From NCBI RefSeq assembly GCF_015751905.1, contig NZ_JADOUF010000001.1, positions 6,510,001 through 6,574,000 of the forward strand: 64,000 bases of DNA, written 5' to 3'. Source of the stretch: Longispora fulva. Its GTDB lineage: Bacteria > Actinomycetota > Actinomycetes > Mycobacteriales > Micromonosporaceae. The notes beneath the pieces were generated by a model that made no database searches, had not been told where the DNA came from, and worked only from the letters and a program-made list of their open reading frames with translations. Made by a program: the position numbers and the translations under genes. This document shows positions 2,871 to 21,108 of this stretch, piece by piece. How positions within the stretch are numbered: position 1 is the stretch's first letter; the number at the start of each line of letters is the position of its first letter.

Positions 2871-5800
2871 TTAATACCAGTTCATGGTGCTGCTGACGCC
2901 GCCACAGGTCACGGTGACCCAATGGGTGGGGAAGCCGAACCAGTCCGACGAGTCCCGGCTCTCGTTCGCGCCGTAGGTGTTGGTGACGAAGCCGCCCGAC
3001 CCGTCCTGGCTGGTGAAGGAGCACGACACGTTTCCGCCGAAGTTCGCGGTCTGCACGTGGATGTAGGCGCACGAGGTCGACAGGCACTGGCCCTTGCCGA
3101 CGCACGCCGATCCGCCGCCACCGCCGCACGCCCGCCCCTTGGAGATCGCGACCGTCGGCGGAGGCGGCGGGGTGGCCTGGGACGCCGACTGGCTCAACGT
3201 GGGCCGGCCGCCGTCGGACACCGTGACGGTGATGGTGTCCGTGGCGCTGTAGCCCATGTTGTCGGTGCTCGACCAACTCCAGCCACCCACCCCGGTCGTG
3301 AACGTCTGGTTCTGCCGACTGGTCGACACGTTCACCGTCGCGGGCTTGCCGTTCGGGTCGACGGAGACCGTGAAGTTGACGTCGGTTCCGTTGGCGGACG
3401 TGCTGATGGCCAGGTTGCGCATCGGCCCGTACGTGGTCACGCCGACCGCGACCGGGCTGTCGCACGGGTTGCCGGCACCGGTGCCGCCGTGGCTGCCGTT
3501 GCAGTTCTGCACGTTCAGCGCCACGTTCTGGCCGTTGGGTAGACCGTTCACCGTGCGGGTGACCCCGGACTGGCCGGCGGGGCTGAACGTCCACGAGCCG
3601 CAACTGCCGCCGCTGTAGGTGCAGGTCACCGTCGAGGTGGCGCCGTGGGAGGCCGGCGCGTCGAACCGCAGCGTGGCCTGGCCGTCGGCCCCGGTCGGAC
3701 TGACCGAGACCCCGGTCATCGGCTCCGGGGTCGCCGTGGCCTCCATCTGGGTGCCCGGACTGGGCGCTGACGTGTGGCCCACGGCGTTGGCCGCGGTCAC
3801 GGCATAGGTGTAGATGGTGCCGTCGTTGGTCAGCCCGTCGTCCGGGCACGAGGTGGCCGTGACGGCGGCGCACACGGTCTTCGAGCCACCGCCGTTCCTG
3901 GTCAGCGTGTACGTCGTCGGGGCCGGCCCGTTCGGGTCGTCCGCCGGCCACGACACGGTCACCGCGCGCTGGGACGAGTTGGCCGAGTCCACGGACGTGA
4001 AGGTCGGCGCCTGGGGCTGCGGGGGGACGCCGGCGGACTGGCCGGGTACCGTCGCCGCCGGCCCCGGACCCTGCGAGTTCACGGCGATGACCGTGAACAC
4101 GTACTGCGAGTCGTTCACCAGCCCGGTCGCCGTAGTGCTCGTGCCCGATACCGTCTGGTGCCCGCCACCGGTCCAGGTCACCTCGTACCGCAGAACCGCG
4201 GTGCCGTCGTTGGGCGGGGTGTTCCAGGCCAGGTGCAGGGTTCCGTCCTGCGGGTCGGAGACCGCCAGCGCCGTCACCGCGCCAGGAACGGTGTTCGGCT
4301 GGGCCGGCCCCGACGCCGCGCTCGGCCGACCCCAGCCGACCAGGTTCCGGGCCCGGACCGTGAACGTGTACGTCGTCCCGTTCGTCAAGTCCGTGATCAG
4401 GCATGGCGAGGCAGGGCACGTCCGCGTCCCGCCGGACCAGCTGACCTCGTAGGCGTCGATCGGCGCGCCGTTGTTGGCCGGAGTCGACCACGACAGCTGC
4501 ACGGACCTGCTCAGTACCGTGCGGCCGATGTCCGGCGGGCCGGGTGGGTCGGGCACGCCGAGAACGTGCAGGGTGATCTGCCCGGTGACCCGGCGGTCGG
4601 CCCGGTTCTGATCGGCGACGTCGGACACGACGACGGTGAAGGACATGGTGCCGTGGCTCTGCGCGCCGGGCGTGATCTTCACCGTGGCCCCGCTGACGAC
4701 GGCAGTCGCCGGCATGCCACCCGGCACTTCGCTGACCGCCACCGCGACCACGGCGGGATCGCGCAACTGGGACCGGACGTACGGCACCAGGTTCACCGTC
4801 GCGGTGTCGCCGGCCTTGACCCCGTCCACCGTGATCGGGGTGACGGACGGCGGGGCCGCCGCGACGACCCGGATGGGCAACCGGGCCGGCACGGTGTCGG
4901 CGCCGACGACCCCGATCACCAGTGTCCCGGTGGTGTCCGGCACCGCGGACCCCGCGGCGGTCACGACCAGTGCGTGTTTGCCGGAACCGTCCAGGCTGAC
5001 GCCCGCAGGCGCGGCGTTCTCCCACGAGGCCGTGTACTTCGTCCCGGTCAGCTTCGCAGGATCGGCCACCCACACGTGACACACCGAAGACACGTCAACG
5101 GTGATGGGTTCGCCGCCCTCGATCACGCTGAGCGCGTCCGCGGGGCAGCGCAGGACCGGCGTCTCGGGGCCGACCTGCACCGGGAGGGTCACCACGGCCG
5201 TGCGGCCCTGCGGATCGGTCAGCGACGCGCCGTCGGTGACCTGGAACGTGAGCGCCGCCGGGCCGGTGTAGTCGGCGCGGCCCGTCAGTACCAGTTGATG
5301 GTCGCCCTGGTTGTTGACGGCCACCCCGAAGGCTGGCGAGGCCCAGATCCGGTCGGTCGTGGTCAGCCGCAGGGGCTTGCTGGCCGGATCGAGCACGTAG
5401 TCGGCGATGTCGACGGTGACCGCGCCGTTCTTCGGCACGGTGACCGTCCGTCCGGGTTTGGCGTAGGGGCCGCTGGCCCCGGGCACCGGCACGTGCACCA
5501 GGCCCACCGCGGTCGCACCGCCCTGGTCGCGGACCTCGTAGGCGACGGTGCGCGGCTGGTCGGCCACCGGCACGGTCACCTTGCCGCCAGCGATCCTGGC
5601 TTGCGGGTCGAACACCCGGGTGACCGTGAGGTCGCGCGGATCCCCGTCGGGGTCCCCGCACTGGTGCAGGACGTCCACGGTCACGGTCGTCGCACCGGTG
5701 GCCGGTTCGGCGAAGGTGTCGCGGGTCAGCGGGGGCAGGTCGTAGCCCTTCTGGCTGTGCACGGTCAGGGTGGCCACGGAGGGCTGGCCGATCCCGTCGG

Positions 5801-8800
5801 TGACGGCGTACACCAGCACCAGCGGCCTGCCGGTCAGGTCCGGCGCGGTCAGCTCGACCACGCCGTCCGGGGCGGTGAGGGAGACGCCGTGTGGCAACTC
5901 GGGATTGCGCCTGGCCAGCGGCTCGATGGTCATGGCGTCGTCGGGCGCGCGCAGGTCGTTGGCCAGTACGTCGACCCGCAGGTGCGCTCCGGGTGCTGCC
6001 GTCACCACGTCGTCCACGGCCACCGGTGGCTGCGGGGTGCCCGGGGGCACGACGCCCACCCGGATCATGGCGGTGCCGGACTTGCCGTACCGGTCGGTGA
6101 CCCGGTATCGGAACGTGTCGGTTCCCGAGCTGGTCGGGTACGCCTGGTAGGTCAGCGACGTCGCGTTGCCCGCGAGGATCCGGCCGAGCGCCGGTGCCGA
6201 GTCGAGCCCGGTCACGGACACGGAGTCGCCGTCCGGGTCGACCCCGGTGCTGGGCACGGTGAGGATGACCGTCGCCCCGCCCACGGCTCGGGCCTCCACC
6301 GGTCGCGGCACGGGGGGCCGGTCGGGATTGGCCGCCGTCGGCGGGGGGACGACCGTCACGTGCGCGTGCCCGACGGCGACGTCACCCGCCGGGTCCTGAG
6401 CCACGTAGTCGACGGTCACGGTCAGTGGGGTGGTCACGGTCAGCGGGGCCACGTACCGGACCAGGTTGCCGGTGACGTACGCGGTGCCACCTGCGGGACT
6501 GATCGTCAACTGGCCGGGGCCGGGCGCGCCGGCCACGTTGGCGACGAGCGTGATCGGCGATCCCCCGGAGGTGGTGTCGTTGTCCAACACGGGGATGGTC
6601 ACGGCGTCGCCGGCCCGCACCACGGCGTAGTCGTCCTGCGGTACCGGGGTGTCGGCCGCCGGAGCCGGCAGCTGGGTGACGGTCACCTCACCGGTCACGG
6701 GTCCGGTGACCCCGTCGGTCACGGTGTACCGGATCAGCTGCGGGTTGGGGTTCACGACGGGCGCGAGCGCGTTCACCCGCAACCAGCGTCCGCCGATGAT
6801 GGCCACCTGGACCTGCGCGTCGGCGGCCACCGGCGCGGCGTGCTGCAACACGAGCACTCCGCCCGACGGGTCGAAGTCGTTGGCGAGCACGTCGACGGTG
6901 CTGGGCTGTTGGCTGTGCACGACGGCCGAATCGGGCATCGCCACCGGTGGGGCAGGGGTGGCGGGGGCGGCGACGATGTCGACCCGCACGGTGCTCTTCG
7001 CGAACGGCGCGTTGCCGTACGCGGCCGTGTAGTCCAGGAAGAACGTCCCCGCCCGCGCCGCGGTCACCGTCACGGTGCCGGAGTGCAGGTCCGTGACCAC
7101 GACCGCGCCTGCGGGGGTGGGCAGTTCGCCGGCCAGGGCGAGCTTCGTGGTCGGGTCGGTCGGGTCGGAGCCGGGCACGTCGTTGTCGAGCGGCCGGATC
7201 GTCACGGGCTGACCGACCTGTCCCCTCGCGACATCCGGCAGGGCCGTGGCGGGCAGCGCCGCCGTGGCGGTACTGCTCTGCACCGTCACCGCCACTGTGC
7301 CGTCGACCGGGGTGGCGATCCCGTCGGAGACCTTGTACCCGGGCTTCTGCGGGCCGGCGGCCAGCGGGGCGGTGAAGTCCACCAGGCCGTCGGACGTGGT
7401 GGCGACCGCGCCGGCTTTCGTGCTCGCGGAGACGAGGACCACCGGGTCGCCGTCAGGGTCGCGCCAGTCCGGCAGCACGGGCAGGGTCAACCGCCCGGCG
7501 GCCGGCACGGTCCAGGTCACCGGCCGGTACCCGGTGCGCAGCTCTGGCGGACGGTTCTCCCCGGGGCCGCGGATCGACACGGTGACCGCGGCGCTGGCGT
7601 TGAGATCCCTGCCATCGTCCACCGTGTACTTGAAGTGCACCTCAGTGACCTGCGCCGGTACCGTGATCGCCACGGTCTGCCCGTCCGGGGCGATGGCCAG
7701 CCGGGCGGCCGGATTGTCCGGGGCGGTGACGGAGGAGATCGACAGAATGTTGCCGGCCGGGTCGGAGTCGTTGTCCAGCACGTGCAACAGGGTCGTCCTG
7801 CCGGGGCGGGCGCCCAGGATGTCGTCCACGGCCTTCGGCGGCTTGTCACGGGCGAGCTGCGTGGTGGGGTTGTCCTTCGTCTTGTCGCTCGGCTTCTCGG
7901 CGGGCGGAGGCTTCACCGCGGACCAGTCGTCCACCCGGCGCTGGGTGGACAGGTCCCACACCTCGCCGGTGGCCAGGTCGTTCAGCACGAGGGCGCCCCG
8001 GTTCGCCCGGAACTCCGGTCGGGTGAGCACCCGCAGGTCCGTCAGGTTGCCGGGGGAGGCAGGCCGGCCACCGCACGACTTCACGTAGCCGTTGCGGGTA
8101 CCAGCCCACGCGGCATGCACGCAGTTGTCCAGCAGGGCCGGTTCGGCGGGCACCCCGGCGCCGATGTCGGACAGGGACGTGACCTTGCCGTCGGACAGGT
8201 CGACGGCCAGCAGGGACCGCGAGGTGGAGACCATGACGTTGGAGGCGGCGGGACCGGAGGACTGCAGCACCGCCGCGTGGTCGGGGCCGGTGACCGGCAC
8301 GGTGGGGCCATCGGGCACCACGAGAGTGCCACCTGTCGGGTCCAACACCACAAGACGGGTACCGACGGCCGTCGCCAGCACGGATTGCAGCTTCTGTCCT
8401 AGCGCCGAATACGCCGGTTCGACGAACCCTCCGTCCCGCACCCGGATCGTGGCGACCCGGCCGGCCGCCGAAACGGCAAACACCGTGCCGTCCAAGCCCA
8501 CGGCCAACCCCGCCGAGGCATCGGACCCGCCGTCGCCGACCGTGGCCAACGGAGAACCGGACGGGTCCACGCCGCTGAGGCCCGAGATGCCGCGACCGGG
8601 ATCCACCCGGCTGGCCCATACCTTGCCCGACTTCGGATCCAACACGGCGAGCGTGCCGCCGGCCAGCCGGACCTGCTGACTTTCACTCACGGGCAGACCT
8701 TGATCACCGAGAGTGACTCCTCGGGTCACGTCGACGGGGAACAGCTTGCCCGCCGCCCGGTCCCTGGCCACGACGGCCGACCCGTTCTGGCTGATGTCGA

Positions 8801-9038
8801 GCTGGTAGTTCAGGCGTGCGCCGCCGGGCGGGTAGAACGCGGCGTCCAACGAGCCCGCTGGCTTGTTCAGCCGGCCGAACAGCCCGTCGCGGTCGCTGGT
8901 GACCCAGATGCCGCCGTCGTTCAGTTCGACGTGTCGGACGGGGTAGCCTGTGGCGAACACCGCGTACACGACGAGGACGGCGGCGCAGACCGCCAACGCC
9001 ACCCCCGACGCGAATCCCACCAGGCGTCGCTTGCCCAT
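2871..9038 (-). CDS. Giant membrane-anchored multi-domain Ig/cadherin-like and fibronectin type III protein
   Basis: 2055 residues. A single N-terminal membrane helix (about residues 8-30) is followed by a roughly 340-residue region resembling a beta-propeller. A charged Pro/Lys linker (about 375-405) leads into a long array of Ig-like/cadherin-like (VCBS-type) repeats containing motifs such as DNDSDPAG and VTDG. Around 1500-1900 there are fibronectin type III repeats with typical 'PGPP..' boundaries. The C-terminus is Cys- and Gly-rich with several cysteine pairs, suggesting disulfides outside the cell. The stop of the preceding FHA gene (9041-9039) abuts this ATG directly. The protein is probably exported and displayed on the surface, with its short N-terminus inside. 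Its ligand cannot be told from sequence. Confidence 0.85.
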   Translation of the reverse strand: MGKRRLVGFASGVALAVCAAVLVVYAVFATGYPVRHVELNDGGIWVTSDRDGLFGRLNKPAGSLDAAFYPPGGARLNYQLDISQNGSAVVARDRAAGKLFPVDVTRGVTLGDQGLPVSESQQVRLAGGTLAVLDPKSGKVWASRVDPGRGISGLSGVDPSGSPLATVGDGGSDASAGLAVGLDGTVFAVSAAGRVATIRVRDGGFVEPAYSALGQKLQSVLATAVGTRLVVLDPTGGTLVVPDGPTVPVTGPDHAAVLQSSGPAASNVMVSTSRSLLAVDLSDGKVTSLSDIGAGVPAEPALLDNCVHAAWAGTRNGYVKSCGGRPASPGNLTDLRVLTRPEFRANRGALVLNDLATGEVWDLSTQRRVDDWSAVKPPPAEKPSDKTKDNPTTQLARDKPPKAVDDILGARPGRTTLLHVLDNDSDPAGNILSISSVTAPDNPAARLAIAPDGQTVAITVPAQVTEVHFKYTVDDGRDLNASAAVTVSIRGPGENRPPELRTGYRPVTWTVPAAGRLTLPVLPDWRDPDGDPVVLVSASTKAGAVATTSDGLVDFTAPLAAGPQKPGYKVSDGIATPVDGTVAVTVQSSTATAALPATALPDVARGQVGQPVTIRPLDNDVPGSDPTDPTTKLALAGELPTPAGAVVVTDLHSGTVTVTAARAGTFFLDYTAAYGNAPFAKSTVRVDIVAAPATPAPPVAMPDSAVVHSQQPSTVDVLANDFDPSGGVLVLQHAAPVAADAQVQVAIIGGRWLRVNALAPVVNPNPQLIRYTVTDGVTGPVTGEVTVTQLPAPAADTPVPQDDYAVVRAGDAVTIPVLDNDTTSGGSPITLVANVAGAPGPGQLTISPAGGTAYVTGNLVRYVAPLTVTTPLTVTVDYVAQDPAGDVAVGHAHVTVVPPPTAANPDRPPVPRPVEARAVGGATVILTVPSTGVDPDGDSVSVTGLDSAPALGRILAGNATSLTYQAYPTSSGTDTFRYRVTDRYGKSGTAMIRVGVVPPGTPQPPVAVDDVVTAAPGAHLRVDVLANDLRAPDDAMTIEPLARRNPELPHGVSLTAPDGVVELTAPDLTGRPLVLVYAVTDGIGQPSVATLTVHSQKGYDLPPLTRDTFAEPATGATTVTVDVLHQCGDPDGDPRDLTVTRVFDPQARIAGGKVTVPVADQPRTVAYEVRDQGGATAVGLVHVPVPGASGPYAKPGRTVTVPKNGAVTVDIADYVLDPASKPLRLTTTDRIWASPAFGVAVNNQGDHQLVLTGRADYTGPAALTFQVTDGASLTDPQGRTAVVTLPVQVGPETPVLRCPADALSVIEGGEPITVDVSSVCHVWVADPAKLTGTKYTASWENAAPAGVSLDGSGKHALVVTAAGSAVPDTTGTLVIGVVGADTVPARLPIRVVAAAPPSVTPITVDGVKAGDTATVNLVPYVRSQLRDPAVVAVAVSEVPGGMPATAVVSGATVKITPGAQSHGTMSFTVVVSDVADQNRADRRVTGQITLHVLGVPDPPGPPDIGRTVLSRSVQLSWSTPANNGAPIDAYEVSWSGGTRTCPASPCLITDLTNGTTYTFTVRARNLVGWGRPSAASGPAQPNTVPGAVTALAVSDPQDGTLHLAWNTPPNDGTAVLRYEVTWTGGGHQTVSGTSTTATGLVNDSQYVFTVIAVNSQGPGPAATVPGQSAGVPPQPQAPTFTSVDSANSSQRAVTVSWPADDPNGPAPTTYTLTRNGGGSKTVCAAVTATSCPDDGLTNDGTIYTYAVTAANAVGHTSAPSPGTQMEATATPEPMTGVSVSPTGADGQATLRFDAPASHGATSTVTCTYSGGSCGSWTFSPAGQSGVTRTVNGLPNGQNVALNVQNCNGSHGGTGAGNPCDSPVAVGVTTYGPMRNLAISTSANGTDVNFTVSVDPNGKPATVNVSTSRQNQTFTTGVGGWSWSSTDNMGYSATDTITVTVSDGGRPTLSQSASQATPPPPPTVAISKGRACGGGGGSACVGKGQCLSTSCAYIHVQTANFGGNVSCSFTSQDGSGGFVTNTYGANESRDSSDWFGFPTHWVTVTCGGVSSTMNWY

Positions 9039-9755
9039 CTAGAGCCCCCTACTCGAAGTGGAACCGTCCAACATGGTGAGATCGGCGTGCTCGACCAGCC
9101 GGGCGGCCAGCGCGTACTCGACCAGGCGCGCCCGCCGGTTCACCGCCAACCGACCAGGCTCGCCGTGCAGTCCCCGGATGCCGGCGCGGGCCAGCTTCTG
9201 GCAGACGTTGTCGAGCTTTCGGTTGAACCTGGTCAGCTGCCAGCCGAGCCGGGCGGCGGCCTGGGCGGAGGTCGGGATGCCGCCCGCACCCCGGGTGCCG
9301 CGGCGCAGCATCTGCTCGCACAGGGCGACGATCAGCCGCTTCTGATCGGGGGTGAAGGTCATCCGGCCGATGGTGGTTCTCCCCGCATCGCTGGCGGTCG
9401 GTGCGACCGGTACGAACAGCGGGTCATCCAGCACGATTTCGAACTCGTACGTCGTGCCACCGGCCGTGAACCACACGAACGTGCGGTCGAACACCAGCGG
9501 CAGCCGGGCGCCGGGTGCCAGCCACGCCTGCAACATGCCCTGCTCGTCGGCGACGGTCGCGGTGAGCCGGCTGCCCAGGTTCGTCAGCCACCACAGGGAC
9601 GCCTGGTCGCCGACCTGGAGGAAGTGCCGATGCAGGTACGGATTGTCGTCAATGGTCAGCCGGCCCTCCCGACCGATGACCAGCGGTTCGCCGGCCGACA
9701 CGGGGTGGGACTCGCCGCAGAACTCCACGGTCACCGACGCCGACCTCGCGCTCAC
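9039..9755 (-). CDS. Small FHA-like domain protein with C-terminal helical DNA-binding-like region
   Basis: 238 residues from a GTG that overlaps the kinase stop as GTGA; an in-frame ATG at 9764 is an alternative start. The N-terminal ~100 residues resemble an FHA domain (VIGREGRLTIDDNPYLHRHF). The C-terminal half (from about FTPDQKRLIVALCEQML) looks like a winged-helix or sigma-region-like module (AAARLGWQLTRFNRKLDNVCQKL). The gene sits between the Ser/Thr kinase and the giant surface protein, so it is a plausible phospho-reader for that kinase. The FHA call is moderately sure; the DNA-binding reading of the C-terminus is tentative. Confidence 0.7.
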   Translation of the reverse strand: MSARSASVTVEFCGESHPVSAGEPLVIGREGRLTIDDNPYLHRHFLQVGDQASLWWLTNLGSRLTATVADEQGMLQAWLAPGARLPLVFDRTFVWFTAGGTTYEFEIVLDDPLFVPVAPTASDAGRTTIGRMTFTPDQKRLIVALCEQMLRRGTRGAGGIPTSAQAAARLGWQLTRFNRKLDNVCQKLARAGIRGLHGEPGRLAVNRRARLVEYALAARLVEHADLTMLDGSTSSRGL

Positions 9756-11230
9756 CTGGCACATCCCGCGGCGGACCAGTCGGCACTCGCGTGGCTGCCG
9801 TCGGCACGGACGACCTTGACCTGCACGCAGAGTTCGGTCCCCGCCGGGTCGTCGAGGTCCAGCACGGCCTTCGGCGCGATCCCGGTCCTGGCCCCGTCCG
9901 GGGTGCGCCAGGTGAACGTGTCCGTGGCCTGCGGCGCCGAGTAGGTCCAGCTGAACCGCAGGTGTGCGGGGTCGGACCTTGTCACGGCGACCGTCGGCCG
10001 GCCGGGCGGGGTGTCGTCGCCGGCGCTCTGGCCCGTGCTCTCGTCGAGGACCCGGTGCGGGGCCGCGGTATCCGAGCCGTGCAGTACCACGGCCACCACG
10101 ACGCCGACGGTCGCCAGCACCAGCACGCCGGTACCGGTCAGCCAACGGCCGGGCCAGCGGGCGCGGTCGGTGGCGGGAGCGTCCACGGTCGGCTCCGGCA
10201 CGGGCTTTCGCTGCGTGTGCCCGACCGGCGGCGGGACCGGTAGCGGCCTCACCGAGTCGGGCCGGTCGACCGTTGTGGGGACACCGGGCTCGACACCGGG
10301 CGGCTTCGGCCCCGGTGCGGTCACGACGCGGCGGGTGGTCAGGTCGTGCGCCGGGGTGCGCGGCGTGGTGGGTCCCGGGTCCGGCGTGGCCACCGTCGGA
10401 GCCAGGCGGCTCTCGATCCGGGCCAGCTCGGACTCCAGGACCCTCGCCGACGCCGGCCGGGCCGCCGGCGTCCTGGACATGGTCCGGGCGAGCAGGGCCT
10501 CCAGCGCCGCGGGTACGTCGGGCCGGCCGGTCGCCGGGGCGGAGCCCGTGTGGATCCGTCGTTCCAGCGCCTTCTGCGAGTTGTCCCCACCGGGGATCTC
10601 GAACGGGGACCGGCCGACGAGCAGGTGCCAGAGGGTCGCGCCGAGCGAGTACACGTCTGAGCGGATGCCGCCCCACTCGCCGGCCAGGATCTCGGGTGGC
10701 GACCAGGGCACCGAGACCCCGAAGTCCTCGTAGTCCTCGGACTCGGCGACGGGACCGGCGACGCCGAAGTCGGCGAGCAGGATCTTCTTGAACTCGTCGG
10801 TGAGCAGGTTCGCTGGCTTGATGTCCCGGTGCACGATGCCCACCTGGTGGGTGGCCTGCACGGCGCCGGAGACCGTGATCCCGATCCGGAGCACCTCGGC
10901 CACGGGGATCGGCGGGCCGGACGCCCGCTCAGCCAGGTTCGGACCAGAGCAGAAGGGCATCACGAGGTACGGCTGGCCGTCGGTCGACACCGACTGCTCC
11001 AGTACCTGGATGATGTGCGCGTGGTTGCCGAGCCTGGCCATGGTGCGGGCCTCGGCGATGAACTGGGCCCGTGCCGCCGCGTCCGTACCGGCGTCCTTCG
11101 GCACCTTGATCGCGACCTCGCGGTTCAGGCTGAGCTGCTCGTAGACGTAGACCGTCGCGTAGCCGCCGCCTCCGAGGTCCCGGTCGTAGCGGTAGCCGGG
11201 GATCTGGGGCGGCGACGGCCGGCGGGTCAT
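9752..11230 (-). CDS. Transmembrane serine/threonine protein kinase (PknB-like)
   Basis: 492 residues. The N-terminal kinase domain has a glycine loop (LGGGGYATVY, 19-28), catalytic Lys42 in VAIKVPK, the HRDIKPAN catalytic loop (134-141) and DFG at 154-156, so it should be active. A Pro/Thr-rich juxtamembrane linker (280-360) precedes one membrane helix (about 365-384). The short extracellular tail resembles a fibronectin type III fold rather than PASTA repeats. It is coupled to both neighbours: its ATG overlaps the FHA gene stop (ATGA), and its stop overlaps the next start. With PP2C and two FHA-type proteins encoded beside it, this is a complete write/erase/read phospho-signalling set. Confidence 0.92.
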   Translation of the reverse strand: MTRRPSPPQIPGYRYDRDLGGGGYATVYVYEQLSLNREVAIKVPKDAGTDAAARAQFIAEARTMARLGNHAHIIQVLEQSVSTDGQPYLVMPFCSGPNLAERASGPPIPVAEVLRIGITVSGAVQATHQVGIVHRDIKPANLLTDEFKKILLADFGVAGPVAESEDYEDFGVSVPWSPPEILAGEWGGIRSDVYSLGATLWHLLVGRSPFEIPGGDNSQKALERRIHTGSAPATGRPDVPAALEALLARTMSRTPAARPASARVLESELARIESRLAPTVATPDPGPTTPRTPAHDLTTRRVVTAPGPKPPGVEPGVPTTVDRPDSVRPLPVPPPVGHTQRKPVPEPTVDAPATDRARWPGRWLTGTGVLVLATVGVVVAVVLHGSDTAAPHRVLDESTGQSAGDDTPPGRPTVAVTRSDPAHLRFSWTYSAPQATDTFTWRTPDGARTGIAPKAVLDLDDPAGTELCVQVKVVRADGSHASADWSAAGCAR

Positions 11231-12687
11231 CCGCTCACCTCGTACCGGAAGGACGTGTCGTCGGTCAGGCTCACGACGGAGCCCGGTTCCAGGGCCTCCG
11301 GCCGGTTCGGCGTCAACGCGGTCACGCCCCCACCGGGCGCGGTGACGAGCGTGCCGTTCGTCGAACCGAGGTCCACGACGAGTACCCGCCAGTCCTCCAG
11401 TCGGATCTCCACATGGTTGCGGGAGATGTCGTTGTCGGGGCTCGGCAGCCGGACCAGGTGTGGCCCGCCGGGCCCGTCGGCGGCGTCGGGAGCTCGGCCG
11501 ACGATGACGCCGCGGTCGAGCGGGATGACGTCGTCCTTCGGCAGCCGCAGCACGCCGAGGACCGGTCGGGGCACCCGGGTCGCGGACCGATCGGTGATCG
11601 GATCACGGCAGAGCCGGCAGGTCGCGGCGTCCGGAGGGTTGAGGTGGCCGGCGGCGCACCGGATCGCAGACACCGTCGGTCCGCCGTCAGCGGTCGTGGC
11701 GGCGCGGCGCGGCTTGTACGTCGTCGCGTAGGCGTCCACCGGAACCGTGGGCAGGGACCCAGTGCGTCGGGTGGCGACCGGTGCCGGTCGCGCGGGGGCG
11801 CCCGTCCCGCCGGGCAGCGCCCACGACACGTCCTCGATCAGGCCGGGAACGTGGTCGTACACGTCCGGGGTCAGGGTTTCGGTCGGGAGCTGGGTCGCCT
11901 CGGCGCCGGCGGCCCGTACCGGCGGGTCCGCCTCGGGTGGGGGGCCGAACTCCTCCTCCTCGGTGGCCGGGATCCGGGTCTCGCCGAAGAGACCGTCATA
12001 CGTGCCCTGTTCGGGCTCTGGGGTCGCAGCCAGGCTGATCACCGGTGCCGCCCAGGACTCCGCGATTCCGTGCGGCCGGGGACCCGGGTCGGAGTCGGGC
12101 GTCGGTGGCGGCCCGGTCCACGACGCGGGCACGGGATCCGGCCCCGGCCCCGGCACCGGGTCGACCGGCTCGAACTCGAACTCGGGCACGGGGGCCGGCT
12201 CTGGTTCCTCCGGCGGACACGACAACGACCCGGCGGACGCCGTGCCCCGCAGTTCCACGACGAGGTCGGAGGCCAGCACGACGCCGCCGGTCACGGGCAG
12301 CGGACCGGCGGCCCCCGCACCGGGACCGCGCACCCGGAATCCGGTCAGCGCCTCGTCCACCATGCGGTCGACGAGGTCGGCGATGCCCTCGGTCCGGATC
12401 CGGATCTCGCCACCAGCCACGGTCACCAGGTCCACCCACGCCCCGCCGCGCACGATGACGTGCGCGACGCCGTACGCGTGCCGGACCACGGCGAAACTTC
12501 CCACGGCGTGGTACCCGTTCCGCAGGCTCTCGTCGAGCACCGCGTAACAGTCGCCCCCAGCTCGGATCAGGTCCCACCACCGACCGACCACGGGGTCGTC
12601 GGATTCCACATCTGCCAAGAGCCACAGCTCCGGTCCGGTGACGGCGACCCACGTTCCCGGCGCGTAACGGACATCCGGTCCGCTCAC
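11227..12687 (-). CDS. Zinc-ribbon and FHA domain protein
   Basis: 486 residues from a GTG overlapping the phosphatase stop (GTGA). The N-terminal ~170 residues form an uncharacterised globular domain. A long Pro/Glu/Asp-rich linker follows, then a zinc-ribbon-like segment (CAAGHLNPPDAATCRLC) at about 350-375. The C-terminal FHA domain (about 385-486) carries the phosphothreonine-binding signature (GRAPD, SRNHVEI and GSTNGT). This architecture suits a phospho-dependent adaptor recognised by the adjacent kinase and PP2C. Domain calls are secure; the role is inferred from its neighbours. Confidence 0.88.
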   Translation of the reverse strand: MSGPDVRYAPGTWVAVTGPELWLLADVESDDPVVGRWWDLIRAGGDCYAVLDESLRNGYHAVGSFAVVRHAYGVAHVIVRGGAWVDLVTVAGGEIRIRTEGIADLVDRMVDEALTGFRVRGPGAGAAGPLPVTGGVVLASDLVVELRGTASAGSLSCPPEEPEPAPVPEFEFEPVDPVPGPGPDPVPASWTGPPPTPDSDPGPRPHGIAESWAAPVISLAATPEPEQGTYDGLFGETRIPATEEEEFGPPPEADPPVRAAGAEATQLPTETLTPDVYDHVPGLIEDVSWALPGGTGAPARPAPVATRRTGSLPTVPVDAYATTYKPRRAATTADGGPTVSAIRCAAGHLNPPDAATCRLCRDPITDRSATRVPRPVLGVLRLPKDDVIPLDRGVIVGRAPDAADGPGGPHLVRLPSPDNDISRNHVEIRLEDWRVLVVDLGSTNGTLVTAPGGGVTALTPNRPEALEPGSVVSLTDDTSFRYEVSG

Positions 12688-13466
12688 CGGGTCTCCACGG
12701 CCTGGGACCTCGGCAGGGTGTCCTCGCTGGCAGTGTCGTCGTCGCAGGCCACATGGTCCACGACCACCACGGTCACGTTGTCCCGGCCACCAGCCTCCAC
12801 GGCCAGACGGACGAGCGTGCGCGCCGCCCGTTGCGCGACCGGCTCGGCCCAGAGCACCGCCGCGATCTCCGGATCGCCGAGCTCGGTGGACAGCCCGTCC
12901 GAACAGATCAGGAACCGTTCGCCGGGCGTGGGCGGGAACATCCACAGGTCGGCGTCCGGCGCCGGGTCCATGCCCAACGCCCGGGTGACGACGTTGCGGC
13001 GGGGATGCTCCCGAGCCTCCGCCGCGCTGATCACCCCCGCCGCCACCAGTTCCTCGACCTCGGAGTGGTCGACGGTCATCCGGGACAGGGAGTCCTCGGC
13101 GAACCGGTACACGCGGGAGTCGCCGATGTTGAACACCACCCAGTGTTCGGAGCCGGCGAACCTCAACAGGCACAGACCCGCGACGGTGGTACCCATCCCG
13201 GCACGCTCCGGATGCGCCGCCGCAGAGGCGAGGATCTCCTCGTTGGCGAGTGCCAGCTCGGCACGCACGTCCGCCGGCTTGAGGCCCGGCCGGTCGCCGA
13301 GCCGGCCGAGCCGGGCGACGGCGAGGCGACTGGCCACCTCGCCGGCCGCGTGTCCGCCCATCCCGTCGGCCACGGCGAACATCGTGGCCATCGTCAGGGA
13401 GCTGTCCTCGTTGAGCTCACGGACCCGGCCAGCGTCGCTCGCGGTTCCCGAACGCACGGTCACCAT
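12684..13466 (-). CDS. PP2C-family serine/threonine phosphatase
   Basis: 260 residues covering a full PP2C fold. Metal-binding motifs include NEDS (19-22), ADGMGGH (33-39), GDSRVYR, SDGL and GGRDNVTVV near the C-terminus. The ATG directly follows the stop of the upstream gene (TGA|ATG) and its own stop overlaps the FHA gene start. Bacterial PP2C enzymes of this type reverse phosphorylation by PknB-like kinases, and such a kinase is two genes away in the same transcript. There is no membrane segment, so it should be cytosolic. Confidence 0.93.
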   Translation of the reverse strand: MVTVRSGTASDAGRVRELNEDSSLTMATMFAVADGMGGHAAGEVASRLAVARLGRLGDRPGLKPADVRAELALANEEILASAAAHPERAGMGTTVAGLCLLRFAGSEHWVVFNIGDSRVYRFAEDSLSRMTVDHSEVEELVAAGVISAAEAREHPRRNVVTRALGMDPAPDADLWMFPPTPGERFLICSDGLSTELGDPEIAAVLWAEPVAQRAARTLVRLAVEAGGRDNVTVVVVDHVACDDDTASEDTLPRSQAVETR

Positions 13467-16379: not shown

Positions 16380-17552
16380 ATGATCAACGGCGACCTCGCC
16401 GGCCTGCTCACCGCAGTGGCCGAGGCGGTCGGGCTCCAGGAGGGCGAGTCCGGGGTCGAACGGGTGCTCCGCGCGATCCGGGAGCTGGAGCCGGCCTCGA
16501 CGAAGGCCGTGAGCCGGCACGTCGGGCTGCCGCTCCCCGTGATCGCCGCGATCAACAACGAACTGCGCACCCGGGGCGTCGTGACCACCAACCGGCCGAG
16601 CCGGCTGACCGACGCCGGCCGCACCCTGCTGGAGAGCCTGCCGATCGACCTGAGCGCCGCGGCGACGTGCCAGTCCTGCGACGGGCACTCGGTGGAGATC
16701 CCGGCGGACTTCGACCCGGTGCTCGAGCGGCTGGCCCTGATCATGGAGTCGGCGCCGGGCGTGGACCTCACGCTGGACCAGTCGTTCGCCACGGTCGAGA
16801 CGAAGGTGCGCCGGGTCCTCCTGCTCATGAGGTACGGGCTGCTGCCGAGCCGCGCCGCCCTGTGCGTCGGCGACGACGACCTGATGGCCGTGGCCATCGC
16901 GGCCGTGGGGGCGGCGATCGACCGGCCGCTGGTGCAGCGGTTGGCCGTGGTGGACATCTCGCCGGAGATCCTGGAGTACACCCGGAGCTGTCTGGCCGAG
17001 CTGGGCGTGACCGCCGAGCTGGTCGAGCACGACCTGCGCGAGCCGCTGCCCGAACCCCTCCGGAAGGGGTTCGACCTGGCGCTGACAGACCCGCCGTACA
17101 CGACGGAGGGGGCGGGGTTGTTCCTGTCCCGGGCCGTGGAGGCGCTGGTCCCCGGGCCGGGGCGGTCGGTCGTGTTCTCGTTCGGGCCGAAGGGGCCGGC
17201 GAACACGCTCCAGGTCCAGCGGGTGATCACCGAGCTGGGGTTGACGGTGCAGGCGATGCACCGCAACTTCAACGAGTACCTCGGGGCCGGCATCATCGCC
17301 GGCGTCAGCCACCTGCAGTACCTGTCGACGACGGCGGAGACTGCTCCACTCGTCGAGGGCGCGCACGCCGGTCCGCTGTACACGGCCGACCAGCGCAGCG
17401 CGGCCCGGGAGTACGTCTGCAACGGCTGCGCGACCCGGTACGCGGTGGGCAGGGACGCCGAGTGGCCGACCATCGCCGCGCTCAAGGAGGCCGGCTGCGC
17501 GCAGTGCGGCGGCGACAGGTTCCGCCCCCTGCAACTGATTCGGGACAAGTGA
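16380..17552 (+). CDS. bpsA: BpsA-type branched-chain polyamine synthase (aminopropyltransferase)
   Basis: 390 residues. An N-terminal winged-helix-like domain (about 20-85) is followed by CQSC (97-100), then a Rossmann methyltransferase-like core with the family motifs GDDDLMAVA (164-172) and DPPYT (237-241). The C-terminus has a CxxC..CxxC zinc-ribbon-like element (CNGC, CAQC). BpsA enzymes move aminopropyl groups from decarboxylated S-adenosylmethionine onto an internal amine, giving branched polyamines such as N4-bis(aminopropyl)spermidine. The matching AdoMet decarboxylase gene lies downstream in the same cluster (19470). The true acceptor here may differ from spermidine because of the carrier-protein enzymes encoded in between. 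A DNA methylase was considered because of DPPY, but the GDDD motif and context argue for BpsA. Confidence 0.85.
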   Translation: MINGDLAGLLTAVAEAVGLQEGESGVERVLRAIRELEPASTKAVSRHVGLPLPVIAAINNELRTRGVVTTNRPSRLTDAGRTLLESLPIDLSAAATCQSCDGHSVEIPADFDPVLERLALIMESAPGVDLTLDQSFATVETKVRRVLLLMRYGLLPSRAALCVGDDDLMAVAIAAVGAAIDRPLVQRLAVVDISPEILEYTRSCLAELGVTAELVEHDLREPLPEPLRKGFDLALTDPPYTTEGAGLFLSRAVEALVPGPGRSVVFSFGPKGPANTLQVQRVITELGLTVQAMHRNFNEYLGAGIIAGVSHLQYLSTTAETAPLVEGAHAGPLYTADQRSAAREYVCNGCATRYAVGRDAEWPTIAALKEAGCAQCGGDRFRPLQLIRDK

Positions 17553-17557
17553 CTGAC

Positions 17558-18016
17558 ATGGCACACACACTCCGCCAGGCCACGGAGGCCGACCTCGACG
17601 CGCTGGTCGGCTACGAGATCGTGATCGCGCAGGTCTCCTTCGGCGCGGACGCCGTCGTGGACCCCGAGGTGCACCGGGGCAAGCTGAGCAAGGGGCTGAC
17701 CAGGGACGCCGAGGGCATGATCGTCGCGGTCGACGAGGACGACGCCGTGGTCGGCTGGATGTGGCTGGCCGTGAACACGAACTTCCTCACCGAGGACCGC
17801 TACATCAACTTCCGTTCGCTGGCCGTGGACCCCGGTCCCGACAGCGAGGAGGTCGGCGAGGCGCTGCTGGCGTACGGGCTGGACTTCGCCCGGCGCAAGG
17901 AGGCCGGTGAGATCGTCGGCAAGGTGTACATGGGCAACCAGGGCATGCGGGTGCTGTACCGCAAGTTCGACTTCGAGCCGGTACACCTCACGCTCCGCAG
18001 GAAGATCGAACTGTGA
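17558..18016 (+). CDS. GNAT-family N-acyltransferase of the polyamine-type cluster
   Basis: 152 residues with a GNAT fold: N-terminal LRQATEADLDALVGYE, a central beta strand NFRSLAVDP (about 88-96) and the C-terminal NQGMRVLYRKFDFEPVHL, typical of the acyl-CoA acetyltransferase end motif. It starts 5 bp after the aminopropyltransferase stop, and its own stop overlaps the next start (GTGA), so it is translationally coupled. A GNAT between a polyamine enzyme and a carrier-protein loading enzyme could acylate a polyamine nitrogen, using acyl-CoA or the carrier protein as donor. This role is inferred. Confidence 0.8.
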   Translation: MAHTLRQATEADLDALVGYEIVIAQVSFGADAVVDPEVHRGKLSKGLTRDAEGMIVAVDEDDAVVGWMWLAVNTNFLTEDRYINFRSLAVDPGPDSEEVGEALLAYGLDFARRKEAGEIVGKVYMGNQGMRVLYRKFDFEPVHLTLRRKIEL

Positions 18017-19113
18017 AGTGTGTGGTCTGGGATCTCGACGGCACGGTGTGGCCGGGGATCGCGATCGAGGGCGCGGAGGGCACGCTGCCGACCCCGTACC
18101 CGTGGGCGCTGGAGCTGATGGCGGCCCTGGAGGCCAGGGGCGTCGTGAACAGCGTCGCCAGCCGCACCGACCCGACCCTGGCCGCGGCGCTCGCCGCGCA
18201 TCCGGACCTGGTCGACCGGTTCGTCGCGCCGCAGCTGGGCTGGGGCGACAAGAGCGTGGCCATCCGTCGGATCGTGGACACGCTGGGCATCGGGGCGGAC
18301 GCTGTCGCGTTCGTGGACGATAACCCGTTCGAGCGGGCCGAGGTGGCCGCGCTGCTGCCCGAGGTCCTGGTGTTGTCGCCGGAGGAGCTCCGGGGGCGGT
18401 TCGACGAGCTGTTCCCGGAGGCGGTGACGGCGGAAGCGAGATCACGACCTGACCGGTACCGCGAGGAGCAGCGCCGGGTCGCCGCCGAACAGGACTTCGC
18501 CGGTTCCCGGGAGGAGTTCCTCCGCTCGTGCGGCATGGTGCTCACGGTGAGCCCGGCCGGCCCGGTGGACGTGCCGAGGATCGCCGAGCTGGTCGCGCGC
18601 ACCCACCGGTTCAACACCACGGGTGAGCAGTGGTCCGCCGACCAGCTCGCCGCGCTGGTCGACGATCCGGACTGGTTCGTGCCCGTGGTCCGCCTGGCCG
18701 ACCGGTTCGGAGAGTACGGCCAGATCAGCACCGCCCTCGTCCAGCGCGGCGCGTCGTGGCGGATCCGGTTGTTCATGGTGTCCTGCCGGGCGGCCGGCCG
18801 GGAGGTGCCGGTGGCGGTCCTCGGCTGGTTGGTCGACCGGGCCCGCGCGGCCGGCGCGCGGGAACTCCTCGTCGAGATCCGCACGGACCTCGCGAACCTC
18901 GAACTGCGCCTCCTCCTGCGCCGGGTCGGCTTCACGGCCGTCACCCCGCCTGCTGGAGCCGCCCCGCCGACCGGCACCGCTCCGGCGCGGCCCCACGACG
19001 CGGACGAGCCGACCGACGGCGACGGAAACCGGGCCGTGCTGCTCCGCCGGGACCTGACCGAGATGCCGCCCGTCGCGCACCTGACGCTCGAGGAAAAGGG
19101 GTGGTCGGCGTGA
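18013..19113 (+). CDS. FkbH-like HAD-IIIC family protein
   Basis: 366 residues. The N-terminal HAD-IIIC domain opens with VVWDLDGTVWPG (nucleophile Asp7, Asp9), then has a DKSVAIRRI lysine motif and VDDNPFERAEV. The C-terminal half (about 175-350) is the GNAT-like domain typical of FkbH proteins. FkbH enzymes take a glyceryl unit from 1,3-bisphosphoglycerate, dephosphorylate it and load it on a carrier protein for methoxymalonyl or tetronate units. The carrier gene follows with a GTGA overlap, as in those pathways. No polyketide synthase or dehydrogenase (FkbK/FkbI) is present, so the loaded unit likely has another fate. Confidence 0.86.
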   Translation: MKCVVWDLDGTVWPGIAIEGAEGTLPTPYPWALELMAALEARGVVNSVASRTDPTLAAALAAHPDLVDRFVAPQLGWGDKSVAIRRIVDTLGIGADAVAFVDDNPFERAEVAALLPEVLVLSPEELRGRFDELFPEAVTAEARSRPDRYREEQRRVAAEQDFAGSREEFLRSCGMVLTVSPAGPVDVPRIAELVARTHRFNTTGEQWSADQLAALVDDPDWFVPVVRLADRFGEYGQISTALVQRGASWRIRLFMVSCRAAGREVPVAVLGWLVDRARAAGARELLVEIRTDLANLELRLLLRRVGFTAVTPPAGAAPPTGTAPARPHDADEPTDGDGNRAVLLRRDLTEMPPVAHLTLEEKGWSA

Positions 19114-19391
19114 CCGACGACAACCGCGCCGCCGACCTGCCGGACGTCGAGACCGGCATCCGCGCGGCCCTCGCCGAGGTCCTGGACCTGGACCCGGCCC
19201 ACGTCGCAGACCTACCGGCCGACACCGCCCTGTTCGACGGCGGCCTGGGCCTCGGCTCCCTGAACGGCGTGCGCCTCCTGGAACTGGTCAAGGCCAGATT
19301 CGGCGTGGACGTCGCCGCGGACGACTGGGCGCTGGAGTCCCTGCGGTCCATCGGCACGCTGTGCGCCTTCGTCCGGGCTGCTGTCGTATAG
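19110..19391 (+). CDS. Stand-alone acyl carrier protein
   Basis: 93 residues with the four-helix carrier pattern. The phosphopantetheine site is at Ser50 in FDGGLGLGSLNGVRLLE, before the usual LVKARFGV helix. The common DSL triad is replaced by GSL, which may change recognition by the phosphopantetheinyl transferase or the partner enzyme. The GTG overlaps the FkbH-like gene stop by four bases. The carrier presumably holds the unit loaded by that enzyme. No PKS or NRPS genes are nearby. Confidence 0.85.
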   Translation: MTDDNRAADLPDVETGIRAALAEVLDLDPAHVADLPADTALFDGGLGLGSLNGVRLLELVKARFGVDVAADDWALESLRSIGTLCAFVRAAVV

Positions 19392-19469
19392 CACACGGTG
19401 CCCGGTTCAACGGCCTGACCTGCCAGTAGTCGTCTGTACACTGGGCGGAGTCCAGTGAAGGGTTCCCAG

Positions 19470-19847
19470 ATGAGTCAGGCACCGCTGCCGGGTGAAGCCG
19501 GCAAGGCGGACGAGATGTGTTCCTACGCCGTGGACGTGTGGCTGGACGACACAGCTCTGCTCACCGACGAGGCCGGGCTGATGGCCCTGATGCGCGACGC
19601 GGCGGAGGCCGGGCACGCCCAGGTGCTGGGCGAGTCGGTGCACCGGTTCCCGAACGGGGCGGTCACCGGGGTGCTCGTGCTGTCCCAGTCGCACCTGAGC
19701 GTGCACACGTGGCCGGAGTACAACTCGGCGAACTTCGATCTGTTGACCTGCGGCCGGCTCAACGGCGAGCGGATCATCGACCATCTGCGCGCGGCGCTGG
19801 ACATCAGCCGGATCAACATCACCAGGGTGCTGCGGGACGTGCAGTAG
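19470..19847 (+). CDS. speH: S-adenosylmethionine decarboxylase proenzyme
   Basis: 125 residues, the size of class 1B AdoMet decarboxylases. The processing site reads LSQSHLSVHTWPE: Ser74 would become the pyruvoyl group, with His79 and catalytic Cys94 (LLTCG) in place. The residue before the cleavage serine is Gln rather than the usual Glu. The enzyme supplies decarboxylated AdoMet, the aminopropyl donor for the BpsA-type enzyme 3 kb upstream. ATG at 19470 follows AAGGG; an in-frame GTG at 19455 is less likely. It lies 78 bp after the carrier gene, so it may have its own promoter. Confidence 0.88.
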   Translation: MSQAPLPGEAGKADEMCSYAVDVWLDDTALLTDEAGLMALMRDAAEAGHAQVLGESVHRFPNGAVTGVLVLSQSHLSVHTWPEYNSANFDLLTCGRLNGERIIDHLRAALDISRINITRVLRDVQ

Positions 19848-19889: not shown

Positions 19890-20426
19890 ATGATGATGAC
19901 CTACGCCCGGGACGGGACACTGGCCACCAGTTCGATGGAACCGGGGTTCGTCGAGTTCTACGGCGCGAACTTCTCCGACCTCGCGGCCCAGCTCTACGTG
20001 TATCTGGGCGACATGGGCGAGGCGCAGGACGTGGTTCAGGAGGCGTTCTGCCGAGCCTGGGTCCGATGGGGACGCGTCAGCCGGTACGAGGAACCCGTCG
20101 GCTGGGTACGCCGCGTCGCCTGGAACCTCGCCACCAGCCGGATCCGTCGCCTGATCATCGCCCGCCGCTATGCCCGGCTGGACCGCCCGCGCACCGTCGA
20201 CGGCCCGGCCCCCGACCGGGTGGCGCTGATGGCAGCCCTGGCCACGCTGCCGGCCAACCAGCGCAGGGCCGTGGTCCTGCACTACCTGGCGGACATGTCC
20301 GTCGCCCAGATCGCCGACATGTGCGGGGCCCGCGAAGGCACCGTCAAGACCTGGCTGTACCGCGGCCGGGCAGCGCTCGCGACCCAGCTCCGCGACTCCG
20401 AGGAGGCGTCCCCCCATGCCCGATGA
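19890..20426 (+). CDS. SigE-family ECF RNA polymerase sigma factor
   Basis: 178 residues with sigma region 2 (FVEFYGANFSDL through VVQEAFCRAWVRW) and region 4 (LATLPANQRRAVVLHYLADM, then AQIADMCGAREGTVKTWLYRG). It belongs to the SigE-type group common in Micromonosporaceae. Three consecutive in-frame ATGs (19890, 19893, 19896) make the exact start uncertain, and no strong Shine-Dalgarno is visible. Its 3' end overlaps the next gene by 11 bp, which encodes a membrane protein likely to act as its regulator. Confidence 0.87.
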   Translation: MMMTYARDGTLATSSMEPGFVEFYGANFSDLAAQLYVYLGDMGEAQDVVQEAFCRAWVRWGRVSRYEEPVGWVRRVAWNLATSRIRRLIIARRYARLDRPRTVDGPAPDRVALMAALATLPANQRRAVVLHYLADMSVAQIADMCGAREGTVKTWLYRGRAALATQLRDSEEASPHAR

Positions 20427-21108
20427 GTTCCCAGCCCAGGACGACCTGCTGCTCCGCCGGGCCCTGACCCGGGTGCACGACGCCGCCCGGATGGAACTGT
20501 CCCCGCACCGGGTCGGCGCGGTCCGGGCCGCGAGCCGGCGGCGCACGGTCGGCATCGTGGTGGCCGCCGGCGTGGCCCCGCTGGTCCTGGCAGCGACCGC
20601 CGCCGCGGCGTTCACGGTCGGCGGCGGCGACACCGCGGTGAGTCCGGCGTCCGGCGGCGGTGCCGGGTGCGTGACCCAGGCGCCGAGCGGCCCACCGACC
20701 CCGTGGCCGTCGTCGCCCGGATCGACCCACCCGACCCCGTCGCCCACCGGCAGCACGAAGCCGAGCTCGTCGCCGGTCCCGCCGCAGTCGACCCCAGCCC
20801 CGTCGTCCCCGCCGCCCGGCTGGCCGACGCCGTCGCCGCGGAGCCCGGGGGACCGACCGACCCCGAGCCCGGACGGGTGCGACCCGACCGGCACCGCCGA
20901 GCCCCAGCCGAGCCCGACCCGGGCGCCGCAGTCCCCGAAGGGCACCCCTCGCCCGACGGGAGCGCCGAACACGGTGGCACCGCCGTCGCCGGGGCCCTGC
21001 CCGTGGGCGCACCCGATGTGCGCCACCCCGTCCGCGGTGGCCCCGACGCACTCGGGCTTCCCGGCCACCCCGGCCCCGAACTCGCCGACGCCGTCGGCGA
21101 CGCGCTGA
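20416..21108 (+). CDS. Single-pass membrane protein with Pro/Ser/Thr-rich extracellular tail
   Basis: 230 residues. A short cytosolic N-terminus (about 1-45), one membrane helix (about 46-70), and then about 150 residues almost wholly of Pro, Ser, Thr and Gly. It is translationally coupled to the ECF sigma gene. That layout fits a non-canonical anti-sigma factor or sigma-associated membrane partner, but no anti-sigma domain (such as a zinc-binding HxxxCxxC) is present. The low-complexity tail may span the cell wall. Confidence 0.7.
   Translation: MPDEFPAQDDLLLRRALTRVHDAARMELSPHRVGAVRAASRRRTVGIVVAAGVAPLVLAATAAAAFTVGGGDTAVSPASGGGAGCVTQAPSGPPTPWPSSPGSTHPTPSPTGSTKPSSSPVPPQSTPAPSSPPPGWPTPSPRSPGDRPTPSPDGCDPTGTAEPQPSPTRAPQSPKGTPRPTGAPNTVAPPSPGPCPWAHPMCATPSAVAPTHSGFPATPAPNSPTPSATR

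Follow-up and report, generated by a model that had tools for sequence, protein, structure and literature searches.

What joins a homologue of branched-polyamine synthases to enzymes that would charge a carrier protein? The question is raised by a 64,000-nucleotide stretch of the Longispora fulva genome (the window; NCBI RefSeq assembly GCF_015751905.1, contig NZ_JADOUF010000001.1, positions 6,510,001 to 6,574,000), which lies within a single contig of 8.68 Mb in the genome that we label G000. A first-pass annotation, made from the letters alone, had read five closely spaced genes within it as a joint pathway, and searches with Pfam and NCBIfam placed all five in the families that it had named (16380–19847, + strand).

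The first gene, bpsA-like, encodes an aminopropyltransferase of 390 amino acids (aa) (16380–17552; PF01861, BpsA_C, E = 9.3e-37). It is followed by gnat, for a GNAT-fold N-acyltransferase (17558–18016; 152 aa; PF00583, E = 4.8e-7), and by fkbH, for an FkbH-like protein with a HAD-IIIC phosphatase part and an acyltransferase part (18013–19113; 366 aa), which scores 192.5 bits against TIGR01686 (cut-off 146.65) and covers profile positions 3–320 of 323. Then come acp, for a stand-alone acyl carrier protein (ACP; 19110–19391; 93 aa; PF00550, PP-binding, E = 8.2e-8), and speD, for a pyruvoyl S-adenosylmethionine (AdoMet) decarboxylase homologue (19470–19847; 125 aa; PF02675, AdoMet_dc, E = 3.4e-26; TIGR03330, SAM_DCase_Bsu, 84.8 bits, cut-off 75.65). 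The whole unit is compact, about 3.5 kb in a single direction on the + strand, and the GTGA overlaps noted earlier at gnat/fkbH (18013–18016) and fkbH/acp (19110–19113) can be read directly in the sequence.

The five genes recur together

A BpsA profile built from four cassettes was searched against four overlapping genome sets: 354 genomes of the family, and samples of 397 from the order, 394 from the class and 296 from the phylum. At E ≤ 1e-40 the family set gave 11 matches (5 full-length and 6 of a shorter type) and the phylum set gave 6 (4 full-length of the cassette type and 2 canonical BpsA); at E ≤ 1e-60 the order and class sets gave 4 and 6, all full-length. After removal of duplicates between sets, 14 genomes carried a full-length cassette-type BpsA. 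In all 14, speD was adjacent to bpsA, although its position varied (downstream, upstream or on the opposite strand), and in 13, from five families, the order bpsA-gnat-fkbH-acp was directly kept. Pairwise identities across these 13 cassettes ranged from 27% to 99%, with medians of 41–47% by protein. Because the same gene set recurs in 12 further genomes, the arrangement is not a matter of chance. A scan of genome contigs with a single window protein had one relative to offer (L010), and a plasmid search one partial match, in Nonomuraea.

Whether homologous clusters keep the FkbH/carrier pair with the BpsA/AdoMet decarboxylase pair was the point on which the first-pass annotation had staked its joint pathway, and in 13 of the 14 genomes the five genes form one cluster. 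The remaining genome (G1149, locus L051), which shares only the phylum, has overlapping speD and bpsA at 8897–10422 without the rest. An opposite-strand gene comes next, and the contig runs out 1.5 kb past bpsA; no FkbH match was found in the 490 contigs of this genome, and no match to the cassette acp in the 11.9 kb of the locus.

Gene fusions cross the two pairs. BpsA and GNAT form a single open frame in 5 of the 13 cassettes (L035–L039; 590–659 aa, with a Pro/Ala-rich linker), and ACP and SpeD do so in 3 of the 13 (L006, L031 and L032; 205–213 aa); Pfam saw both domains in all three ACP–SpeD frames and in the two BpsA–GNAT frames that were scanned. These fusions link genes that might have belonged to separate pairs, and together with the conserved set they bear out the joint pathway in the gene-neighbourhood check. 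The pairwise identities of the five proteins are also correlated across the 13 cassettes (r = 0.79–0.92), with 0 of 2,000 permutations reaching any of the ten values, and patchy presence in the family (5 of 354 genomes) suggests transfer as a unit. From the sequences, the five genes almost certainly belong to one pathway.

An all-against-all comparison of the 13 neighbourhoods, made with a rough gene caller that missed or merged some cassette genes, found no further gene common across lineages nearby, except one for a phosphopantetheinyl transferase (PPTase). The PPTase cluster comprised three loci by crude gene calls and five after tblastn, and in 5 of the 13 cassettes the gene is no more than ~1.1 kb from speD (L035–L039; Pfam was run on 2 of the 5). 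The window has no such PPTase gene; three PPTase-family matches lie elsewhere in G000.

A carrier branch with no PKS or NRPS genes found nearby

The motifs DxDxT, ASR, VDD, SCR and DRF are present in all 13 cassette FkbH proteins; for the HAD-motif residues and the SCR cysteine we assume the roles usual in this family. The attachment Ser and the motif GVDVA are likewise found in 13 of 13 cassette ACPs. A profile of the 13 FkbH proteins matched 93 of the 354 family genomes at E ≤ 1e-25, with the five cassette genomes scoring 488–512 bits and the next match 353. Around 18 other FkbH genes, three clusters of neighbours recur, in 15, 13 and 10 of the 18 neighbourhoods, and Pfam, run on locus L106, assigns these neighbours to the 3-hydroxyacyl-CoA dehydrogenases, the acyl-CoA dehydrogenases and the carrier proteins. 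These neighbourhoods are operons of the methoxymalonyl-ACP type, in which we take the recurring genes to be fkbI, fkbJ and fkbK. Operons of this fkbG-H-I-J-K type share FkbH and a stand-alone ACP with the cassette, and no closer relatives of the cassette FkbH proteins were found than theirs. A quick tree built from 45 FkbH rows, 13 of them from cassettes and 32 from elsewhere, groups the cassette proteins on a single branch (96% SH-aLRT) next to those of the methoxymalonyl-type operons.

We reject a role in methoxymalonate supply for a polyketide synthase (PKS), since no PKS homologue turned up in any of the 13 cassette loci, with positive controls found, and since FkbI and FkbK queries had no match in 12 of the 13, window included, while matching all six control operon loci. 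A non-ribosomal peptide synthetase (NRPS) as partner is rejected as well: no adenylation or condensation domain was detected in 17 frames longer than 500 aa, of which eight cassette loci supplied 15 and the window 2; the scan excluded smaller frames and one L033 frame on the strand opposite the cassette. Two more window frames were also negative. The earlier reading of this set as one that stands without a PKS or NRPS thus holds for the 13 loci and the 17 large frames.

With no PKS homologue and, in 12 of the 13 loci, no matching dehydrogenase nearby, the C3 unit loaded by FkbH should remain glyceryl. The available passages of two papers describe a glyceryl unit in tetronate clusters (PMC7489565) and glyceryl loading in an NRPS (PMC8949500). 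In the glyceryl-ACP system that we compared, a FabH-like enzyme joins the unit to a polyketide, whereas the cassette loci have no PKS homologue. We consider formation of a glyceryl-ACP quite probable.

An AdoMet decarboxylase homologue and an unusual BpsA

The window SpeD is the sole PF02675 match in G000 at E values up to 0.001. PF02675 was matched in 17 of 145 sampled family genomes; the four cassette genomes in this sample (G000, G024, G364 and G365) have one match each, that of the cassette, and 13 genomes have a SpeD and are not on the list of cassette genomes. According to the available passages of PMC10407285, Ser63, His68 and Cys83 are processing or catalytic residues of SpeD. All 14 cassette-type SpeD proteins retain the pyruvoyl Ser, the His68 equivalent and the motif HTWPE. 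With class 1b AdoMet decarboxylases they share the pyruvoyl Ser and HTWPE, and the window SpeD also the TIGR03330 score above the cut-off. They differ from that class in that 3 of 13 cassettes encode SpeD and the carrier protein in one frame, and in the replacement of Cys83 by Tyr in 6 of 14, the window protein not among them. Far from the cassette lies an open frame of 848 aa that includes a spermidine-synthase domain (G000:C1:4745822-4746424; L044, L045); it is a possible second user of decarboxylated AdoMet (dcAdoMet).

For the window BpsA the nearest solved structure is that of Thermococcus kodakarensis BpsA (Tk-BpsA; 5xnc, E = 1.5e-32). The BpsA proteins of T. kodakarensis and Thermus thermophilus, which are N4-bis(aminopropyl)spermidine synthases, belong to the same PF01861 family and have the same GDDD donor motif. 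GDDD, the Asp of DPP and the Tyr of FxxY are kept in 14 of 14 cassette-type proteins, and the equivalents of Tk-BpsA Asp225 and Tyr290 are retained (Tk numbering being inferred from GDDD as 157–160, and Tyr316 by counting in L052). Cassette BpsA reads DPPYT where the canonical protein reads DPPET, and its C-terminus carries a four-cysteine CxxC...CxxC ribbon (14 of 14, compared with 0 of 2 canonical proteins), in place of the acidic, aminopropyl-carrying tail of Tk-BpsA. Unlike the cassette type, the canonical BpsA of L052 and L053, from the same phylum, has DPPET and an NWY loop and no ribbon. L052 adjoins genes that read by eye as pdaD, speE and speB, whereas cassette BpsA adjoins GNAT-FkbH-ACP.

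We read the dcAdoMet site of cassette BpsA as intact and its acceptor side as remodelled, and the acceptor may be one other than spermidine. That dcAdoMet is made and its aminopropyl group transferred appears likely to us. An AlphaFold2 model of BpsA, with a predicted local distance difference test (pLDDT) score of 46.5, was too poor for use and was set aside.

A further BpsA-like family (L004, L005 and L016–L021) has GDHD in 8 of 8 members, DPPYT, no ribbon and frames of 479–679 aa. Of these eight shorter matches, the two viewed with 15–19 kb of flank (L008 and L009) had no other cassette gene. A 2026 review (PMC12979288), in the passages available, describes bpsA as restricted to thermophiles; the cassette-bearing actinomycetes are probably not thermophiles.

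The GNAT

The usual R/QxxGxG/A acetyl-CoA loop is absent from 13 of 13 cassette GNATs, which fits, though it does not establish, an ACP-bound donor. AlphaFold2 gave one usable fold for the GNAT, the best of five models reaching pLDDT 81.5 and the other four 35–44, and the polyamine acetyltransferases DpA, PaiA and SpeG are among the 50 Foldseek matches listed for that best model. Use of glyceryl-ACP by this enzyme has, in our estimate, an even chance of being correct.

A candidate pathway and its alternatives

The families, most catalytic residues, the fusions and the co-occurrence are read from sequence, and from them we infer the reactions, their order, the acceptor and the product. SpeD would convert AdoMet to dcAdoMet, and a PPTase would prime the stand-alone ACP. 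FkbH would load 1,3-bisphosphoglycerate and dephosphorylate it, giving glyceryl-S-ACP. The BpsA-like enzyme would transfer a 3-aminopropyl group from dcAdoMet to an amine, probably not ordinary spermidine, and the GNAT would then take glyceryl off the carrier, leaving the ACP free, and form an amide with an amine of the BpsA product. The pathway would yield an aminopropyl-substituted amine that bears an N-glyceryl group. Taken whole, with dcAdoMet and glyceryl-ACP joined on one amine and the GNAT making the amide, this is our best explanation, and we judge the balance for and against it to be about equal. A broader wording, in which a ribbon-bearing BpsA subfamily would aminopropylate an amine and a fused GNAT would acylate it with a C3 unit (glyceryl or one related to it), the carrier being fused to the AdoMet decarboxylase in some species, seems to us just as evenly poised between right and wrong.

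Several observations weigh against this explanation, many of them on the acceptor side of BpsA. The NWY loop, taken for Tyr316 of Tk-BpsA, is absent from 14 of 14 cassette-type proteins. Glu259 of Tk-BpsA aligns to Gly272 or Pro270 of the window protein, depending on the alignment; several relatives have acidic residues a few positions beyond this site, where the match is unsure. No acidic C-terminal cluster was visible by eye after the ribbon in 14 of 14, although in L036–L038 the linker opens with two adjacent acids. The two canonical proteins have 7 and 8 acidic residues in roughly their last 30; counted from residue 331, the window protein has 7 in 60 (positions 331–390) and the other cassette types 2–6 in 60. 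The loss concerns the clustered tail, not every acid, as the 7 acids at 331–390 of the window protein show. The first-pass reading of an ordinary branched-polyamine synthase is weakened: family and GDDD are kept, but the acidic tail is lost, as are some acceptor-side features.

The other points against it lie in SpeD, in two loci, in the GNAT and in the pattern of co-inheritance. The catalytic Cys83 is Tyr in 6 of 14 SpeD proteins (L034, L035–L038 and L051) and Cys in 8, including that of the window. Directly ahead of the pyruvoyl Ser stands Glu in 5 proteins, Gln in another 5 (window included) and Ala in 4, so that 9 of 14 lack Glu there. The three ACP-fused SpeD proteins keep Glu-Ser and Cys, so the residue change does not follow fusion; the available passages of PMC10407285 make no mention of a Cys83-to-Tyr change. 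L039 alone has distant FkbI- and FkbK-like matches (31% and 33%), the FkbK-like one sitting in a fatty-acid-oxidation-type protein of 1018 aa that combines an enoyl-CoA hydratase domain with a 3-hydroxyacyl-CoA dehydrogenase domain. Foldseek with the best GNAT model returned many acetyl-CoA-type GNATs, matches that are not specific, and a degenerate loop is common among GNATs. L051 means that BpsA–SpeD can exist without the carrier part, and the correlated divergence can stem in part from shared species history. No neighbour gene shared across lineages, the PPTase aside, names the acceptor.

The GNAT results leave room for a different end to a joint pathway, in which the GNAT would draw on acetyl-CoA for capping or detoxifying the aminopropyl amine, and either the FkbH acyltransferase part or the product of a gene elsewhere would hand on the glyceryl-ACP. 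The acetyl-CoA-type folds nearest to the GNAT, with polyamine acetyltransferases among the 50 matches listed, favour this, as does the FkbH profile, which is matched nearly whole and covers the C-terminal part that we take to be the acyltransferase. Against it stand the acetyl-CoA loop missing from 13 of 13 GNATs and the neighbourhoods, in which the rough gene caller, PPTase apart, found no other cross-lineage gene; we regard it as rather unlikely. An ACP-bound unit could instead be what the BpsA-like enzyme aminopropylates, making the carrier an acceptor scaffold in place of a free amine. ACP–SpeD fusion in 3 of 13 cassettes would put the carrier at the source of dcAdoMet, and the acceptor-side features of Tk-BpsA are partly lost; but the fusion partner of BpsA is the GNAT (5 of 13), not the ACP, a glyceryl unit carries no amine, and L051 retains bpsA and speD with no cassette acp match in its 11.9 kb. 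This arrangement strikes us as distinctly unlikely.

The variable residues of SpeD bear on another possibility, that SpeD is a repurposed decarboxylase of ornithine, arginine or another amino acid that makes the amine, while the BpsA-like enzyme uses another donor. A change of SpeD into an ornithine or arginine decarboxylase is described in the available passages of PMC10407285, in which ornithine decarboxylases are distinguished by Gln, Thr, Phe and Tyr, at positions outside those passages, so the window Gln could be one of them; Tyr for Cys83 in 6 of 14 and the varied residue before the pyruvoyl Ser would suit such a switch. HTWPE is nevertheless kept in 14 of 14, and a conserved Pro is said in the same passages to mark AdoMet decarboxylases as opposed to arginine enzymes, again with its position outside them. 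GDDD is kept in 14 of 14 cassette BpsA proteins, as against GDHD in 8 of 8 BpsA-like proteins without a cassette, and SpeD is the only AdoMet decarboxylase homologue of the window genome, which together make this switch improbable in our view. A chance neighbourhood of two unrelated gene pairs, for which the solitary speD-bpsA pair of L051 could be cited, is rejected as far as sequence allows by co-occurrence in 13 of 14 genomes, by fusions across the pairs and by correlated divergence, and we consider it exceedingly improbable. Our preferred explanation remains the joining of dcAdoMet and glyceryl-ACP on one amine.

Genes around the cassette

An extracytoplasmic function (ECF) sigma factor gene of the SigE type (19890–20426) begins 42 bases after speD. 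A gene for a proline-rich protein overlaps it and comes next (the pair spans 19890–21108), and co-transcription with the cassette is possible. Among the other loci, sigma-factor matches were found only in L035 and L051, in neither case adjacent to cassette genes. Further downstream lies a gene for a C45 family autoproteolytic acyltransferase/hydrolase (NF040521; 21689–22792), for which the other 12 cassette loci gave no match; we rejected both the ECF sigma gene and the C45 gene as cassette parts. Upstream, on the opposite strand, are genes for a Ser/Thr kinase, an FHA-domain protein and a PP2C phosphatase (9752–13466), adjoined by one for a 2055-aa protein with immunoglobulin-like and fibronectin domains (2871–9038).

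Implications

Among the papers listed by our literature searches, which left most subscription papers and all bioRxiv preprints outside, we recognised no description of a pathway that joins polyamine or aminopropyl chemistry to FkbH/carrier chemistry, and FkbH together with polyamine gave no match. If the proposed pathway is true, it would be, as far as these searches reach, the first link of dcAdoMet and polyamine metabolism to phosphopantetheine carrier chemistry. BpsA would thereby gain a second branch, one found in actinomycetes and remodelled on its acceptor side.

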